Positions 849-9,093 of a stretch of DNA of 41,364 nucleotides are shown piece after piece. Each line of letters starts with the position of its first letter. Position 1 is the stretch's first letter. Below the pieces are notes generated by a model. It saw only the letters and a list, made by a program, of their open reading frames with translations. It had not been told where the DNA came from and did not search any database. The stretch is from Planctomycetota bacterium (lineage in GTDB: Bacteria; Planctomycetota; Planctomycetia; Pirellulales; Pirellulaceae), in the NCBI GenBank assembly GCA_024276655.1, contig JAJRWU010000082.1, positions 1 through 41,364 on the forward strand. The letters are read 5' to 3'. The position numbers were made by a program, and so were the translations under genes.

Positions 849-1336
849 TTTTTGATCGCAAGTTATTACTTGATATACACTTGCGATTTATTTGACGCCA
901 GCGGGTCGCCGGGGCAAATGTGAACCGGGCCCTGTACGACATTCGCACCGGATGCAACGGCGCCAGACCATGCCGTGCGCGGTTTATTTAACATTGAGCC
1001 AAGTGTAAGGAAGAAGGTTCGATCTGACAAGGGATTGAAGCCGCCATTGCTCCGTGCGGACGCGTGCCAGAATTATTCGCACGCCCAGAATGCGTGTTTT
1101 GCGCCAACACGATTTTCCAATCCCTTCAGAGCGACGAAAGGCCTCCCAAACGACCGCTTCGATGACCTATCGCCACACGCGACTGCCATCGTGCAAAAAT
1201 GGAATGGTCGGTTTTTGACGTCGAAAAGGCGGCGACTGTCTTCCGCCCTGCTTTGACGAGATATCAGGCAGCCCGTAGGATGGTTGTTTGCCCCGCCCTT
1301 CCAGGGAAAACACTTCTGCTTGCCGATGAAACTGCC
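849..1336. other. intergenic region upstream of alaC
   Basis: Between tRNA-Lys and the aminotransferase start I see no credible gene. The frame of the aminotransferase is open back to 1199, but the extra 46 residues do not resemble this family, so I treat it as leader. I could not pick out a clear -35/-10 pair or a riboswitch. Confidence 0.4.
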
Positions 1337-2575
1337 ATGAACGCCCCGGGCGATGCGCCTTCGAATCGATTTGAAATCCAGTTGGCCTCTCGCGTACTGC
1401 GGTTGCCGCCGTATTTGTTTGGCCGCATCAATCGGTTGCTGTACGAGAAACGCCGGGCGGGGAATGATGTCATCGATTTGGGCATGGGGAATCCGTCCGA
1501 CCCACCCGAAGGCGTGGTCGTGGAGAAGCTCACCGAAGCCGCCCACGACCCGAACAACCATGGGTACAGCACCTCGAACGGGATTATCAACCTGCGCCGC
1601 GAAGTGGCCAGCAAGTACCACCGGAATTATGGCGTGCGGCTCGACCCCGACCATGAAGTGATGGTCTGCCTGGGCTCGAAAGAGGGTTTTTCGCACATGT
1701 GTCTGGCCACGATGGGCCCCGGCGACACCGCAATCGTGCCGGCTCCCTACTTCCCCGTGCATACGTACGCCATTGCCTTGGCGTCGGGCAACGTGATTGC
1801 GTTGGAGGTGGCCGACAGCGAGAAATTCCTCCGCAATATCGCCTACACCTGCCAGCATTTGTATCCTCGCCCCAAGTTGCTGATCATCAACTATCCTCAC
1901 AATCCTTCGACGAAAACGGTCGAACCGGAGTTTTTTGTCGAGATTGTCAAACTGGCGAAACAGTATGGCTTCATGGTCATCAGCGATTTCGCCTACGCCG
2001 ATATCGCCTTCGACGGCTACCAACCGCCCAGTTTTCTCTCGGCGCCCGGCGCCGCCGACGTGGGCGTGGAGTTCACCACCATGAGCAAGGGCTACAACAT
2101 GGCTGGTTGGCGTGTTGGCTTCTGTTGTGGGAACGCTGAAATGGTCAAGGGGCTGGGCGTTATCAAGGGGTACTACGATTACGGCATGTTCCAAGCGGTG
2201 CAAATTGCCGCGATCGTTGCCTTGCGCGACACCGAAGCCGCTGTGGAAAAACAGGCGAAATTGTACAAACGCCGCCGCGATGTGCTGGCCGAAGGGCTGC
2301 GGCGCATCGGCTGGGACGTCGAAAAACCCAAAGCCGGCATGTTTCTTTGGGCCCAGGTTCCGGAAATTTGGAGCCAGCGCATGAATACGCTTGATCTGGC
2401 GATGTATTTGCTCGAACACGGCGACGTGGCCGTCAGCCCGGGCAGCGGGTTTGGTCCGTCGGGCGAGGGCTACTTGCGTTTGGCTCTGGTGGAGAACGAA
2501 AACCGGCTCCGTCAGGCGGTTCGCCAAATCGGCCGCTGCCAAGATCATTTTAGCGCCGCGCGCGGCAAGGATTGA
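1337..2575 (+). CDS. alaC: PLP-dependent aminotransferase, AlaC type (glutamate-pyruvate)
   Basis: A class I/II fold-type I aminotransferase of 412 residues from ATG 1337, the same length as E. coli AlaC. Many blocks match that family as I remember it: LPPYLFGRI near the N-terminus, [29 protein letters not shown], and the PLP lysine in [15 protein letters not shown] (Lys251). [11 protein letters not shown] and the SPGSGFG loop follow. AlaC converts pyruvate and glutamate to alanine and 2-oxoglutarate in the cytoplasm. LL-diaminopimelate aminotransferase is a close relative and cannot be excluded, but the C-terminal half fits AlaC better. A longer in-frame start at 1199 exists and is disfavoured because the added segment is not family-like. 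It is followed at 2634-2678 by a structure that reads as a terminator only on the opposite strand. Confidence 0.85.
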
Positions 2576-2633
2576 CACAATGGCATCATCGTAATGCGAA
2601 TGTCACTGCCTGGGCCGCTTGAGGTATGGCAAG

Positions 2634-2760
2634 AAAATAAAAAAGGAGGGCCCTTGTTCGCCGCAACAAGAACCCTCCATAATTGGCTGCCCGAATTGAG
2701 AAGTGACGAATCGCCTCTCAACCGGAGACCCGCAGCCGTAGTGTCGGTATCGGGATACCG
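2634..2760 (-). ncRNA. candidate structured small RNA with its own intrinsic terminator
   Basis: Read on the minus strand this stretch folds into three successive hairpins. First is CGGTAT-CCCG-ATACCG (2760-2745). Next is a long hairpin closed by GGCTGC/GCAGCC (2737-2685) with inner stem TTGAGA/TCTCAA and a GGCG/CGTC tip. Last is a 14-bp stem (2678-2645) followed by TTTTTTATTTT (2644-2634), a textbook intrinsic terminator. Several positions, two in the terminator stem and three in the long hairpin, are G-U wobbles on the minus strand but A-C mismatches on the plus strand, so the minus strand is the likely RNA. No minus-strand gene ends here; the RNA would start in or just before the carA leader and run away from carA. 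I do not recognise an Rfam class: it is not 6S, SRP or RNase P. The promoter is unclear. Confidence 0.55.
2645..2678 (-). terminator. intrinsic terminator on the minus strand
   Basis: The stem GGAGGG-TT-CTTGTT pairs with AACAAG-GG-CCCTCC around a 6-nt loop, and then a U-rich run is transcribed from 2644 down to 2634. On the plus strand the two central pairs become C-A mismatches and no T-run follows. It therefore does not look like the terminator of alaC. Confidence 0.7.
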
Positions 2761-2811
2761 CCTTGCCTTTCTTTAGGTGACTCGAAAACGCCGTTGGAAT
2801 CAGACAAACTC

Positions 2812-3945
2812 ATGCCGCAAATTGCAAAACTCGCTCTCGAAGATGGATCCGTTTTTACCGGCCGCGCGTTTGGGGCGAACGGGGAGGTTGAAGGCGAGGT
2901 CGTTTTCAATACCTCGATGACCGGCTATCAGGAGATTCTCACCGACCCGAGTTATCGTGGGCAAATTGTCACGATGACCTACCCTCTGATCGGAAACTAT
3001 GGCGTCAACCAGGAAGACCTTGAAAATGAACGCCCTCGGTTGTCGGGATTCATCGTGCGGGAAAACAGCCGGCGGTGGAGCAATTTTCGCGGCCAAGAGG
3101 GGCTCGACGAATACTTGCGGCGTCAGAATGTGTTCGCGTTGGAGGGCATCGACACGCGCCGTTTGGTGCGGCTGATTCGCTCCGCCTGGGCGATGAAAGG
3201 CGTGCTCTCCACCGAATGCCTCGACGACGAGCAGTTGGTGGAGAAAGCCCGGGCCAGCCGCAGTTTGGTCGGCCTGGATTTAGTGCTGGAGGTTTTGCCC
3301 AAACAAAACAAACAGTGGCGGGAAAAACTCAGCCCCTGGGCTTCCCTCCAAACAGAGGAGAGCAACCCAGAGCCCGAGTTGCACGTCGTGGCGCTCGATT
3401 TCGGCATGAAGTGGAACATCGCCCGGCATTTAACCAGCGCGGGCTGTCGGGTGACGGTGGTTCCCGGAAACGCCAGCGCCGACGACATTGCCGCCCTCCA
3501 GCCCGACGGCGTGTTTTTATCGAACGGCCCCGGCGACCCAGAGCCGGTCGGTTACGCGATCAACACCATCAGCAAACTCTTGGGCAAGTTCCCAATTTTT
3601 GGCATTTGCCTGGGCCACCAACTTCTAGGACTGGCCTGCGGCGCCAAAACCTTCAAACTCAAATTCGGCCACCGCGGAGCGAATCAGCCGGTGTTGAACC
3701 TCGAAACGGGGCGGGTCGAAATCACTTCGCAGAATCATGGTTTCGCCATCGAGGAGGAATCGCTGCCGGACGATCTGGAAATCACGCATCGCAATCTTAA
3801 CGACAACACGGTGGCCGGCATTCGCCATCGAAAGCTCCCGGCCTTCGGCGTGCAATACCATCCTGAAGCGTCGGCCGGGCCGCACGACAGCGAATATCTG
3901 TTCCGGCAGTTTCGAGAGCAGATGCAAACCGTCGCTTCAGCCTGA
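2812..3945 (+). CDS. carA: carbamoyl-phosphate synthase small (glutaminase) subunit
   Basis: Hydrolyses glutamine and channels ammonia to CarB for carbamoyl phosphate, feeding pyrimidine and arginine synthesis in the cytoplasm. The 377-residue product has the N-terminal CarA domain (LEDGSVFTGRAFG, then FNTSMTGYQEILTDPSY and PLIGNYG). The C-terminal class I glutamine amidotransferase domain has FLSNGPGDP, the nucleophile Cys266 in FGICLGHQLLGLA, and His350/Glu352 in QYHPEAS. All catalytic residues are present and the length is usual. ATG 2812 is chosen over the in-frame TTG at 2794 because CarA proteins normally begin just before LEDG. carB is not adjacent. The gene converges on the next gene with only 12 bp between the stops. 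Confidence 0.96.
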   Translation: MPQIAKLALEDGSVFTGRAFGANGEVEGEVVFNTSMTGYQEILTDPSYRGQIVTMTYPLIGNYGVNQEDLENERPRLSGFIVRENSRRWSNFRGQEGLDEYLRRQNVFALEGIDTRRLVRLIRSAWAMKGVLSTECLDDEQLVEKARASRSLVGLDLVLEVLPKQNKQWREKLSPWASLQTEESNPEPELHVVALDFGMKWNIARHLTSAGCRVTVVPGNASADDIAALQPDGVFLSNGPGDPEPVGYAINTISKLLGKFPIFGICLGHQLLGLACGAKTFKLKFGHRGANQPVLNLETGRVEITSQNHGFAIEEESLPDDLEITHRNLNDNTVAGIRHRKLPAFGVQYHPEASAGPHDSEYLFRQFREQMQTVASA

Positions 3946-5020: not shown

Positions 5021-5365
5021 TTACCAATACAAAACGCGCGTTCGGGTCAGGCCCCGATTGGAATTGTAATGGTGGTGATACACGCGTTTGTGTCGGTACA
5101 TCAATTCATGGGGCATGAGCGGTTGGTAGGTGTTGTACGTATGGCCCACCATCGCCGGAACGGGGTGCGGCGACAGATACATTTGCGCTGCCCTGGTCCC
5201 ACAATTCGGCGGAACGTAATAATTATAGAATAGTTCGCCGCCGGCGTACGTGCGGGGCAGGCAGTTGGGGCAGTTCGCATCTCCGGCGTGGGCGGATTTG
5301 TTCGTCCATAATGCGGCGCCGACAACAGCAACCAGGCAAATAGTGCGTAACCAAGATTGAACCAT
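5021..5365 (-). CDS. small secreted protein, Tyr/His-rich
   Basis: 114 residues from the ATG at 5365-5363, which has a good AAGGAG about 8 nt upstream; the open frame extends further back but that part is low-complexity leader. Residues 1-27 are a signal peptide (hydrophobic core CLVAVVGAALW, then SAHA cleavage). The mature protein begins with two Cys (NCPNC), has a third Cys in PPNCGTR, and ends in a Tyr/His/Arg-rich tail with HHHY. The composition suggests an envelope or metal-binding peptide, which is inference. It is divergent from the topoisomerase VI operon. Confidence 0.65.
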   Translation of the reverse strand: MVQSWLRTICLVAVVGAALWTNKSAHAGDANCPNCLPRTYAGGELFYNYYVPPNCGTRAAQMYLSPHPVPAMVGHTYNTYQPLMPHELMYRHKRVYHHHYNSNRGLTRTRVLYW

Positions 5366-5803
5366 GGGAACGGCTCCTTTTTCAGGTGGAGGCGTCGCGG
5401 TTGCGACGTATATCTGGCGGGACAGCGGCGGTGGTGGCCGCCTTTTCTCGGTAGGATGGAAAGGGCGTCGCCCTGGGTGTGGTTGTCGTTCCCGCCGCCG
5501 TTGCGAGGTTCGATACGGGTTCGCGCCAAGGTTGTGGGCGAAACTCCGCACGCACCACGCACACCAGTCTGCGGGTCGACTATTAAGTTTCTCGGCTGCT
5601 CCGATGCTAGGGGTGAATCTTTATTTGTCCGTCGGGGCAATTGCACGCGCTTTGACGCCCGCGACGATGAAGTCGGCTGGGATTTCCTCGGAAAAATCGG
5701 TATAATCCGCACTATTCGCCCTGCCAGCCCGCCAGTGCGCAACGCACATACTCGTCTCATTTGCCCGGTTAAGGAAGCCGCTTTGCCCGCCCCCAATGCA
5801 ACC
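5366..5803. other. divergent intergenic region before the topoisomerase VI operon
   Basis: This 438-bp gap separates a minus-strand secreted-protein gene from the topoisomerase VI B gene. The topoisomerase frame is open through it by chance, but its translation is low-complexity and unlike any topoisomerase. A perfect TATAAT at 5701-5706 is the only promoter-like signal I can point to. Confidence 0.45.
5701..5706 (+). promoter_or_regulatory. possible -10 box of the topoisomerase VI operon
   Basis: TATAAT lies 98 bp before the ATG at 5804. No good -35 hexamer stands at 16-18 bp upstream, so this is a tentative call based on the -10 match and position. Confidence 0.35.
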
Positions 5804-7909
5804 ATGGACGCCGCCGCCAACGGGAAAAAACCTCGCCGCCGCCGCGAAACGGCCCAATCGATGGCCGCCAAGCAGCAATCGATTTCGGTCAGCGAGTTTT
5901 TCGCCAAGAATCGACACCTGCTCGGTTTCGACAACCCTCGAAAAGCCCTGCTCACCACCGTGAAAGAGGCGGTCGACAACTCGCTCGATGCCTGCGAAGA
6001 GGCGGGCATCGTGCCGGAAATTTGGGTGCATATCGAATCAACCAAAAAAAATCGGTACAAAATCGGCATCCAAGATAACGGCCCCGGGATCGTGAAAAAG
6101 CAGATCCCGCTGATTTTCGGCAAGCTCCTCTACGGCTCGAAATTCCACCGCCTGCGAATGAGCCGCGGTCAGCAAGGTATTGGCATCAGCGCCGCCGGCA
6201 TGTATGGAATGCTGACCACCGGAAAACCGGTGAAAATCATTTCCAAAACGTCGGTCCGAAAACCGACGCACTACTACGAAATCCAGATCGACACAAAAAC
6301 CAACACTCCCGAAATTCTCAATGGGAAAGGCAACGGCGTCGATATTCCGCCCAACGACGCCGGCCGAAAATACATTCTCAAACATGGCATCGAATGGGTG
6401 GCCGAATACGAACCCGAAAGTGAAGGCGCCAAACCGAAAGACGTTCGTAGCGGGACGCGGGTCACGATTGAACTAGAGGGCAAGCACCATCGGGGACGCG
6501 GCAGCGTCGACGATTACCTCGAACAAACCGCCATTTCCAATCCGCATGTCACGCTGCATTACCTCGACCCCGACGGCAACCAGCACACGTACCACCGCTC
6601 AACCCGAGAGTTGCCCAAGGAGCCGAAGGAAATCAAGCCGCATCCTTACGGCGTGGAGATGGGGCGGTTGATCACGATGTTCAAGGACCAACCCGCGACG
6701 TCGCTGAGCCAGTTTCTCACGACGTCGTTTTCGCGGGTGAGTCCGGCGGTGGCCCGCAAGATTTGCGAAGCGGCGAACCTGAGCACGCGCGCCAACAGCC
6801 GCAAGTTGAAACGCGAAGACGCCGACGCCATCTATCAAGCGATTCAAGCCACGAAAATTTCGGCGCCTTCCACCGATTGCATCGCGCCGATTGGCGAAGA
6901 ACTTTTGATCACGGGGCTGCACCAGGTCGTTCCGGGTGAGTTTTTCACCGCCGCGACGCGTCCGCCTTCGGTCTATCGGGGCAATCCTTTTCAGATCGAA
7001 GTGGCTCTGGCGTACGGCGGCGCCACGCAGGCGCAAAAAGTGACGCTCTCCGCCTTGCAGCAACTTATTCAGGAGAGCGACGCACGCACGCTGCGGCAGT
7101 TTTTAATGAACACCTTCGATGGCGTGGGCGCCGACGCCGCCGAGCGCATTCGCAACGAAGCCGGCTTTGGCGCAAGGCAATCGCCGGCGAAATTCAAGAA
7201 TTCGGAAATCGAACGACTGCACGCCGCCATGCGGAACGTGAATCTTTCGGAAGGGCAGTCGATGCAGGTGCTGCGCTACGCCAACCGCGTGCCGCTGCAA
7301 TTCAAACAACGCGACTGCGCGATCACCGAAGCCGTAATGAACATGAACTGGCGCGCCTATGGACTCAGCCAATCGCGCGGTTCGCTGCCCAGCGGCCCGC
7401 TCACGCTGATGGTGCATTTGGCCAGCGTTTGGGTGCCGTTTACGAGTGAATCGAAGGAGGCGATTGCCGCTTATCCTGAAATTCTGAAGGAGTTGCGGCT
7501 GGGTCTGCAAGCGGTCGGTCGTAAGCTGGGCATTTACATGCGGCGGCGAAAAAAAGTCAAGCAGGAAAACGAACGCCGCAGCGTGTTCTTGCGGTACTTG
7601 GGTGAAGTCGCCCGCGCGGTGAGCGATATCAACGGGACCGACCGCGACGAACTTTACGCCAATTTACTGCGCGTCGCGGAGCGAAAAACGGCGGAGGCGG
7701 ATGTCAAATTCGATGACCGGGGGCGCAAGGTGGCTGATCAAAGCGGTTTCGGCAAGCATGTATTGATTGTTGATCAAGAACAACAAACAGCCGACGACGC
7801 CGAAGCAGATCTGGGGCCAACCAACCCGGCGCCAGTAAATGGCAAACCGATCAATGGCAAACCGGCGGTCGACGCGAATGGCCAGCAGCAACCAAAACTG
7901 TTCGACTAA
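5804..7909 (+). CDS. top6B: DNA topoisomerase VI subunit B (GHKL ATPase)
   Basis: Subunit B of the type IIB topoisomerase, a heterotetramer that relaxes and decatenates DNA using ATP. From ATG 5804 the product is 701 residues. The Bergerat ATP site is complete: N-box EAVDNSLDAC (Glu55, Asn59), DNGPGI (91-96) and the lid SRGQQGIGIS (120-128). The H2TH-like middle part and the transducer domain follow; the segment around SEGQSMQVLRYANRVPLQF is typical of the transducer. The C-terminal ~50 residues are a polar, Asn/Pro/Gln-rich tail longer than in many archaeal B subunits. The next gene, 20 bp downstream, is subunit A, so the pair forms an operon. The family is typical of archaea and plants and patchy in bacteria. 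Confidence 0.93.
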   Translation: MDAAANGKKPRRRRETAQSMAAKQQSISVSEFFAKNRHLLGFDNPRKALLTTVKEAVDNSLDACEEAGIVPEIWVHIESTKKNRYKIGIQDNGPGIVKKQIPLIFGKLLYGSKFHRLRMSRGQQGIGISAAGMYGMLTTGKPVKIISKTSVRKPTHYYEIQIDTKTNTPEILNGKGNGVDIPPNDAGRKYILKHGIEWVAEYEPESEGAKPKDVRSGTRVTIELEGKHHRGRGSVDDYLEQTAISNPHVTLHYLDPDGNQHTYHRSTRELPKEPKEIKPHPYGVEMGRLITMFKDQPATSLSQFLTTSFSRVSPAVARKICEAANLSTRANSRKLKREDADAIYQAIQATKISAPSTDCIAPIGEELLITGLHQVVPGEFFTAATRPPSVYRGNPFQIEVALAYGGATQAQKVTLSALQQLIQESDARTLRQFLMNTFDGVGADAAERIRNEAGFGARQSPAKFKNSEIERLHAAMRNVNLSEGQSMQVLRYANRVPLQFKQRDCAITEAVMNMNWRAYGLSQSRGSLPSGPLTLMVHLASVWVPFTSESKEAIAAYPEILKELRLGLQAVGRKLGIYMRRRKKVKQENERRSVFLRYLGEVARAVSDINGTDRDELYANLLRVAERKTAEADVKFDDRGRKVADQSGFGKHVLIVDQEQQTADDAEADLGPTNPAPVNGKPINGKPAVDANGQQQPKLFD

Positions 7910-7929: not shown

Positions 7930-9093
7930 ATGGCGAAGAAAAAAACACGTAAGAAATCGGCTCCGGAGAAAAAGCCGGCCAAGCCGCCGGTCAAACTCAC
8001 CCCGCAAGATCGCAAAACGCTTTCGTCGTTGAAAAATCTGGCGGGCGGCGTGGTTAAGGCGGCGGCGCGCAGCCGGGCGCCGCATTTGGAAGTTCCCTCA
8101 CGGTCGCTTTCCAACGTGCGCTACAACAAAAGCAAACGCTTCATTGAAATGGGGTCGGGCAAAAATCGTCGAGAGCTGTTTAATCTTTCGCAAGCCAAGA
8201 GCTACATGCAAACCATGTTGGTCGGCTCTGGCTGCAAAACGCTGATCGAACAAGGCAAAACGACCAGCATTCGTGGTATGTACTACCTGCTTAAACACAC
8301 CATCGAAGGCGTTAAGGAAGAGACCTTCGACGACCAATCCGACTGCGACCCGATCATCGAAGACGTGGAAGTCACGCTCAACGCGCTGCGCGAGGAGTTG
8401 CACGTGTATGCCTCGAATCGGGGCGCGATGGTGGGTCCGCTGAGTCTGACCGATAGCGGCGACGATATCGACTGTTCGCGCATGGGTTCGGGCGGCTACA
8501 ACATTCCCTCGATCGTGGAGGATGAAGTTCTCCACTTCCGCAAATGCACCGCCGATTTTGTATTGCATGTCGAAAAAGACACGGTCTGGCGGCGGTTCAA
8601 CGAAGATAAATTCTGGCGCGAGCACAACTGCATTTTAACGCACGGCGGCGGGCAACCTCCGCGCGACGTGCGCCGGCTGCTGCATCGGCTGCATAGCGAA
8701 CTTGATTTGCCAATTTACTGCCTGCTCGATAACGACCCCTGGGGGTACTACATTTATAGCGTGATTAAGCAAGGGTCGATCAATCTGGCTTACGAATCGA
8801 AACGCATGGCCGTGCCCGACGCCAAATTCATGGGCTTGCGAAGCATCGACTACGAGCGTTGTGAACTCACGCCCAGCGTCACGATCAAACTCTCCGACAC
8901 CGACATCAAACGCGCCAAGCAAATTGCCAATTACCCTTGGTTCGCCCACAAAAAAGCCTGGCAAAAAGAGATCAACGGTATGCTTACCAACGGCTTCAAA
9001 CTGGAAGTCGAAGCCTTGATCAGCAAAGACATCAGCTATGTCACGGAGCAATACGCGCCGGCCCGCTTGGCGGCTGAAGATTGGCTCGATTAA
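7930..9093 (+). CDS. top6A: DNA topoisomerase VI subunit A (Spo11-like cleavage subunit)
   Basis: The DNA-cleaving subunit, homologous to Spo11. The 387-residue protein starts with a Lys-rich tail (residues 1-20), which probably contacts DNA. The winged-helix 5Y-CAP domain carries the catalytic tyrosine in SIRGMYYLLKH (Tyr118/119, most likely 119). The Toprim domain has the metal-binding Glu215 in HVEKDTVW and the DxD of LLDNDPWGYYI (Asp267, Asp269), equivalent to archaeal DGDPWG. All residues needed for activity are present. Length is normal for the family. It is 20 bp behind subunit B and converges with the cysteine desulfurase gene. Confidence 0.93.
   Translation: MAKKKTRKKSAPEKKPAKPPVKLTPQDRKTLSSLKNLAGGVVKAAARSRAPHLEVPSRSLSNVRYNKSKRFIEMGSGKNRRELFNLSQAKSYMQTMLVGSGCKTLIEQGKTTSIRGMYYLLKHTIEGVKEETFDDQSDCDPIIEDVEVTLNALREELHVYASNRGAMVGPLSLTDSGDDIDCSRMGSGGYNIPSIVEDEVLHFRKCTADFVLHVEKDTVWRRFNEDKFWREHNCILTHGGGQPPRDVRRLLHRLHSELDLPIYCLLDNDPWGYYIYSVIKQGSINLAYESKRMAVPDAKFMGLRSIDYERCELTPSVTIKLSDTDIKRAKQIANYPWFAHKKAWQKEINGMLTNGFKLEVEALISKDISYVTEQYAPARLAAEDWLD

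Follow-up and report, generated by a model that had tools for sequence, protein, structure and literature searches.

The window, which is the whole 41,364 nt stretch analysed here (contig JAJRWU010000082.1 of Planctomycetota bacterium assembly GCA_024276655.1), contains a predicted RNA gene of about 102 nt in the gap between an aminotransferase gene and carA. The draft genome comprises 5.96 Mb, with the window as its contig C327. Both flanking genes are on the plus strand and the RNA is on the minus strand, divergent from carA and convergent with the aminotransferase gene. As the original prediction had noted, no minus-strand gene ends in this gap. The features are listed in Table 1. The ends given for the RNA gene are inferred from the covariance model; against model R1 the window copy scores 85.7 bits. 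Between the aminotransferase stop codon and the RNA terminator (2556-2630) is a dispersed repeat of approximately 70 bp with an inner inverted repeat, and a search with the surrounding stretch returned 14 further matches elsewhere in the genome. The window also carries genes for topoisomerase VI subunit B (5357-7909, plus strand; PF09239) and subunit A (7930-9093, plus strand; PF04406 and PF21180), a topoisomerase type that is unusual in bacteria.

Table 1. Features of the predicted RNA gene and its neighbours in the window.
Feature	Position	Strand	Details
Aminotransferase gene, alaC/dapL-like	1199..2575	plus	scores under the curated NCBIfam cut-offs for the models shown
RNA gene, ~102 nt	2639..2740	minus	starts near 2740; ends near 2639, within the U-run
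Terminator U-run	2639..2644	minus	
Terminator stem-loop, 14 bp	2645..2678	minus	alignment A3 shows two-sided changes at 12 of 14 pairs
Terminator loop CGGCGA	2658..2663	minus	nearly invariant; from the alignments
Stem-loop 1	2685..2737	minus	P1 GGCUG (2737-2733)/CAGCC (2689-2685), with P2 above; from pair counts
Unpaired bulge CGGGUC between P1 and P2	2727..2732	minus	mostly UGGGUC in relatives; from the alignments
-10-like box CCGATA	2748..2753	minus	separated by 16 nt from the -35-like box; overlaps former hairpin 1
-35-like box CTAAAGA	2770..2776	minus	consensus YTAAAGT
carA, carbamoyl-phosphate synthase small subunit	2812..3945	plus	TIGR01368, 498.7 bits; PF00988, PF00117

On the minus strand, positions 2678 to 2645 form a 14 bp stem with a 6 nt loop, followed by TTTTTT, and a second stem-loop lies 5' of this terminator. 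The terminator stem and U-run originally described for this strand are thus both seen. Folding of the 102 nt from 2740 to 2639 gives -50.5 kcal/mol (z -5.8), with none of 200 shuffled sequences folding as well, and the plus strand of the same stretch gives -41.5 kcal/mol (z -5.4). A generic terminator scan of 1900-3400 found two sites against the 2.0 expected from shuffles. By this count the terminator alone is no better than chance, and it is conservation that carries the weight. Three hairpins had been proposed across 2634-2760, of which the terminator and stem-loop 1 stand, while the one at 2745-2760 is not conserved as a hairpin; the RNA instead spans about 2740 to 2639. When 12 registers were tried at each of 51 loci, the palindrome of this former hairpin 1 was perfect in three of them, and it was rejected as part of the RNA. 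The 'five or so' G-U wobbles reported for the minus strand come to 4 of the 34 pairs in the predicted fold.

Further copies were searched for in the window's family, taken to be the Pirellulaceae or a near neighbour, and in its order, taken to be the Pirellulales. A first pass with blastn (E up to 0.1) gave matches in 68 of 199 family genomes, some of them short and doubtful, and the better loci were aligned as one RNA. Model R1, built from 34 sequences, matches 109 of 241 family genomes in a covariance-model search, from 47 of 68 genera, and 71 of the 159 family genomes of good quality. The RNA is present as a single copy in each of the family genomes matched, with one genome (G002) adding an overlapping self-match on the opposite strand. 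Model R2, built from 51 sequences, matches 164 of 396 genomes of the order and 94 of its 144 genera. These matches span 18 family labels, one of which (f107) is matched only at E 0.007; there are at least 17 families otherwise. A single genome among the order matches has two copies (G712; L261 and L262), one beside carA and the other near a contig end with carA out of view.

In the phylum search R1 matched 15 of 392 genomes, and the three weak matches among these (G527, G600 and G616) are distrusted. A good copy of 55.9 bits, beside carA, is found in a genome that shares only its phylum with the window (L135; G297:C23:48706-48789). Old ancestry, transfer or contamination are each possible for this outlier. 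The matches L102 (35.6 bits) and L103 (29.9 bits) were rejected as false, being without a recognised carA and, by eye, without promoter boxes, and the match L105 (27.3 bits) was left out. Four duplicate loci (L022, L030, L036 and L055) were removed before promoter fits, pairing, open reading frames, distances and hairpins were counted. A pattern scan of named genomes identified 25 planctomycete assemblies, six of them titled Pirellulaceae, and the RNA copies in these six are identical to copies from the genomes of the window's family. A plasmid search gave no match.

Of 24 searched genomes lacking the RNA, 21 have a carA match, and the upstream region is readable in 18 (all but L188, L199 and L206). 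One of these genomes (G057; L195), scored as lacking the RNA, has a diverged or decayed copy upstream of carA, with CCGATAC, TACGGCTGAGGG and a terminator, that was missed by the model. The count of 109 of 241 is therefore a lower bound. Visual inspection revealed no RNA in the remaining 17 readable carA upstream regions.

The 5' part of the aligned RNA reads ACGGCUGUGGGUCUyCGG, followed by a variable stem-loop, yCGGACAGCC and a linker. After the linker, the 3' part reads GAGGGyyCUUGUUkCGGCGAaCAAGrrCCCUC and ends in the U-run. Two segments are nearly invariant though unpaired: the GGGUC of the bulge, which comes after GGCUG and one base, and the CGGCGA loop of the terminator. A small open reading frame was considered and is not supported; any ATG is present in 23 of 55 loci, with lengths of 81 to 105 nt spread over all three frames.

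Alignment of the related genomes, which had been proposed as a check for covarying pairs, gave strong covariation. In alignment A3 (51 sequences), 20 of 26 pairs have two-sided changes that keep the pairing, against 11.2 (sd 1.6) in shuffled alignments; none of 500 shuffles reaches 20, and all slid controls are far lower. The covariation score is 0.381, against 0.213 when shuffled. P1 is almost invariant, with G-C changed to A-U in two sequences, and P2 is the weakest helix, with 80% of cells paired. Read as minus strand, alignment A1 (34 sequences) contains 80 cells with G-U and 7 with A-C, and A3 contains 122 and 18. This excess settles the minus strand, since an RNA made from the plus strand would show the reverse.

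The same counts bear on the plus strand as the source of the element, that is, on a structured carA leader such as a riboswitch or attenuator of which the minus-strand reading would be the mirror image. Its position upstream of carA would suit such a leader, as would the plus-strand fold, which is also better than its shuffles. This is nevertheless highly improbable: the 80 G-U against 7 A-C cells favour the minus strand, a U-run follows the stem only on that strand, and the TAAAGT and CCGATA boxes are oriented and spaced for the minus strand and match flagellin upstream regions. The conservation of plus-strand structure expected of a carA leader was not found, and this candidate was set aside.

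Structure with covariation was found on one strand; the 5' end carries promoter-like boxes and the 3' end a G+C stem and U-run, as in an independent terminated small RNA gene. The original prediction of a structured minus-strand RNA with a terminator is thus borne out by conservation, covariation, strand-specific wobbles, the U-run and a promoter-like site. A free-standing non-coding RNA of approximately 100 nt, with its own terminator, is strongly supported as real by this comparative evidence.

A search of the whole window with the 4227 families of Rfam 15 at gathering thresholds found only a tRNA at 776-848, and a search of 2560-2830 with E up to 5 found no match. The description of the RNA as unassigned therefore holds in this covariance-model search. 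By the comparative evidence this appears to be a real, order-wide RNA family that is absent from Rfam 15. In the planctomycete-related open-licence literature no paper on the RNA was found, which is weak evidence of absence. The Rhodopirellula-1 motif, also a candidate RNA motif partly from Planctomycetes, is tabulated for Proteobacteria and Planctomycetes with a 'y' in the second class column and without an RF number (PMC2864571). The comparison is with this table entry only, and the two RNAs may be identical. A 'y' in that column is taken here to mark a cis-regulatory motif.

Conservation of the neighbouring genes was determined in 41 loci, one of them the window, using as much as 7 kb of flanking sequence in either direction; 38 are from the family and three (L133-L135) from elsewhere. 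carA is directly upstream of the RNA, on the opposite strand, in 39 of the 41, the exceptions being L107 and L143. Just upstream of the RNA at L107, the only stretch with any likeness to CarA (6794-6982) resembles its last 68 residues, with 45% identity. A gene for an aminotransferase like that of the window is present in 24 of the 41 loci and has the convergent place seen in the window in 18. Loci from other families of the order have a divergent carA in 37 of 40 cases; L254 and L255 are without one and L262 has too little upstream DNA. When 61 loci are taken together, false matches and duplicates included, a carA start is found within 900 nt in 55. The weak L104 and the distant L135 have such a start and the false L102 and L103 do not. 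The carA link is therefore stronger than could be known from the window alone, since it recurs across the order. This near-constant place beside carA, while the other neighbour changes across families, suggests a functional tie.

Common descent could also have kept this gene order, in which case the carA linkage would be passively inherited and the RNA would have nothing to do with carA. In favour of this, the RNA has no detectable pairing with the start of carA in a duplex test of 52 loci (mean z -0.08, none below -2, which is the chance level); the test is crude and favours long duplexes, and a short seed could be missed. Passive ancestry does not readily account for carA being kept in 39 loci against 24 for the aminotransferase gene, 18 of these in the same place, or for the linkage persisting in other families, at 37 of 40 loci. 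It is conceivable, but on the unlikely side.

Between the 5' end of the RNA and the start of carA there are 71 to 343 nt in 51 loci, 71 nt in the window and 71 to 150 nt in 38 of the 51. The carA match begins nearer to the RNA at a few loci from other families, for example about 58 nt away at L250. It had been predicted that the transcript would begin near the carA start and be antisense to the carA leader. The RNA does not begin near that start but 71 nt upstream of it, runs away from it and has no overlap with the carA coding sequence. It would be antisense only if the carA transcript began at a point still further upstream than the 5' end of the RNA.

A cis-antisense arrangement of this kind, with the carA mRNA starting upstream of or inside the RNA gene, the RNA pairing with the leader and the two transcripts interfering, seems unlikely. 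The head-to-head linkage would fit it, as would a gap of 71 to 150 nt in most loci, which leaves little room for a separate carA promoter. The σ70-like signal upstream of RNA-bearing carA genes has a mean of 6.71 over 51 loci, which is not above the 6.77 of shuffled sequences, and that upstream of carA in genomes lacking the RNA is slightly higher (7.44 against 6.55 shuffled, in the 9 of 21 loci that pass a start-codon filter). The difference between the two groups has a p of 0.044, in a comparison that is small and crude. A fully antisense RNA could do without a conserved structure, whereas here even unpaired segments are nearly invariant across families.

Upstream of the RNA, 55 loci have a site consisting of YTAAAGT, a gap of 15 to 16 nt, CCGATA, and 5 to 10 nt to the start of the model, this last distance being 13 nt in one poorly fitting locus. 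The letters T-A-A-A-G are each present in 43 to 54 of the 55 loci and C-G-A in all 55; the boxes are the best fit per locus, chosen by these letters, and the counts therefore lean upward. The spacing between the boxes is 16 nt in 40 loci and 15 nt in 15. The fit is poor at L108, L120, L126, L131, L135 and L143. In 40 loci outside the family, CGATA is present in 39 and an accepted -35 box in 32. One place in one genome (G888) was included in both sets, as L044 in the 55 and as L268 in the 40, for promoter and linkage counts alike. The conserved part of the former hairpin 1, CCGATA, is the -10 box of this promoter-like site.

The site resembles the consensus of the flagellar sigma factor σ28 (FliA), which in E. 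coli is given as TAAAGTTT-n11-GCCGATAA (PMC2859248), with a spacing 1 to 2 nt longer than in E. coli. A weight matrix for the site scanned over both strands of the window scores the RNA promoter highest, at 21.8, the next best score being 13.7. A relaxed form of the promoter pattern, used to look for a wider regulon in the window's genome, gave 19 sites against 13 in a reversed control, which is not clearly above it, and by this pattern no wider regulon emerged.

The weight matrix, built from 55 RNA promoters, was also applied to the 420 nt that precede each of seven flagellin genes, the best 7 of 16 Flagellin_N loci from 13 genomes searched. Six of the seven regions score 16.6 to 19.9, whereas no more than 1 of 2254 background segments scores as high as 16.6. 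In the window's own genome the flagellin site is CTAAAGT-N16-ACGATA, 309 nt before the domain match. The σ28-like sites at L171-L176 are 267 to 398 nt before the flagellin domain match and would imply long flagellin leaders. The other nine Flagellin_N loci, searched with a relaxed expression only, gave one site, about 1.3 kb away (L177). One genome (G007) has neither a flagellin site nor an RNA match. Another (G626) has flagellin with a site and is absent among the RNA matches listed; the flagellin site and the RNA therefore need not co-occur. Pairing of the RNA with flagellin leaders was considered and dropped, as only matches of 7 to 8 nt were found in four of five leaders, one of them common to two genomes of one genus.

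The genomes encode FliA, with matches to TIGR02479 in 240 of 240 family genomes, 222 of them over the cut-off, and flhA is present in 231 of 240. Both are near-universal and are therefore useless as predictors of the RNA. The order flhA-flhF-flhG-sigma factor gene is found in two genomes (L221 and L222). The window's genome (G000) and G003 each have two TIGR02479 proteins over the cut-off. In the former, one FliA-like sigma factor gene (L215; G000:C38:9927-10592) lies on contig C38, some 2.9 kb away from flhA, and the second (L212/L217; G000:C123:17340-18005) is near an RpoD-like gene and a gene for a cadherin-domain protein.

A different sigma factor whose consensus is similar may instead recognise the promoter, for example the other FliA/WhiG-type paralogue in the window's genome. 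The paralogues in these two genomes would allow this, the spacing is unlike that of the E. coli consensus, and no Flagellin_N match was found in six RNA-bearing genomes of the 13 searched (G002, G003, G005, G006, G008 and G625). Yet the motif precedes flagellin in six of seven loci, and flhA is present in five of these six genomes, the five being the family members searched for it. Another sigma factor is accordingly judged rather unlikely.

Small RNAs under a flagellar sigma factor have precedents, with which the RNA is compared here by description rather than by alignment. The σ28-dependent RNAs UhpU, MotR, FliX and FlgO of E. coli are described as UTR-derived (PMC10578931). The present RNA resembles these in that control by the flagellar sigma factor is expected, and differs in that it looks like a gene standing on its own beside carA, with a separate promoter-like site and terminator. 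CJnc170 (FlmR) of Campylobacter jejuni is likewise a FliA-dependent small RNA, in another phylum, and its abstract names no carA link (PMC11187230). CarZ of Vibrio cholerae, as described, arises by processing of the carAB 3' UTR and pairs with the transcript from which it derives (PMC7398697). Like CarZ, the RNA is tied to carAB genes; unlike it, the RNA is divergent from carA. The duplex test, crude as it is, showed no pairing with the carA start beyond the level of chance and weakly speaks against a mode of action like that of CarZ.

A promoter-like site, approximately 100 nt and a terminator fit a free-standing small RNA. The RNA is probably a small regulatory RNA with its own FliA-type promoter and terminator, kept head-to-head with carA across the order. 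We infer that it would be transcribed, that this would depend on FliA, and that it may have an effect on carA and a target in trans. Given the FliA-type promoter, it would probably be made with the late flagellar genes, in the motile stage. It would act through two segments, the bulge GGGUC and the terminator loop CGGCGA, by pairing or by protein binding. Transcription driven by FliA would also be expected to affect carA in cis, because so short a distance separates the RNA 5' end from carA in 38 of the 51 loci measured. There would then be two routes of action, in trans through the unpaired segments, or in cis through divergent or overlapping transcription at carA.

A simple role in motility is argued against by the 132 of 241 family genomes without an RNA match and by the six RNA-bearing genomes without Flagellin_N. 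As fliA and flhA are near-universal in the family, the RNA is not needed for flagella. A more far-reaching version, improbable as a whole, is that this is a new class of RNA in the Pirellulales and couples the flagellar (swarmer) programme to the supply of carbamoyl phosphate. FliA would turn the RNA on, the bulge and loop would form a site dedicated to binding a protein, an arginine- or pyrimidine-route metabolite or a conserved RNA partner, and divergent transcription would throttle carA.

The new facts are the FliA-type promoter-like site and the carA linkage. Present in at least 17 families, mostly once per genome, the RNA offers a handle on post-transcriptional control in the planctomycetes. 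The promoter match is a testable clue that may link the motile stage to nitrogen and nucleotide metabolism. carA encodes an early step of arginine and pyrimidine synthesis, and a FliA-type signal beside it would tie swimming to metabolism.
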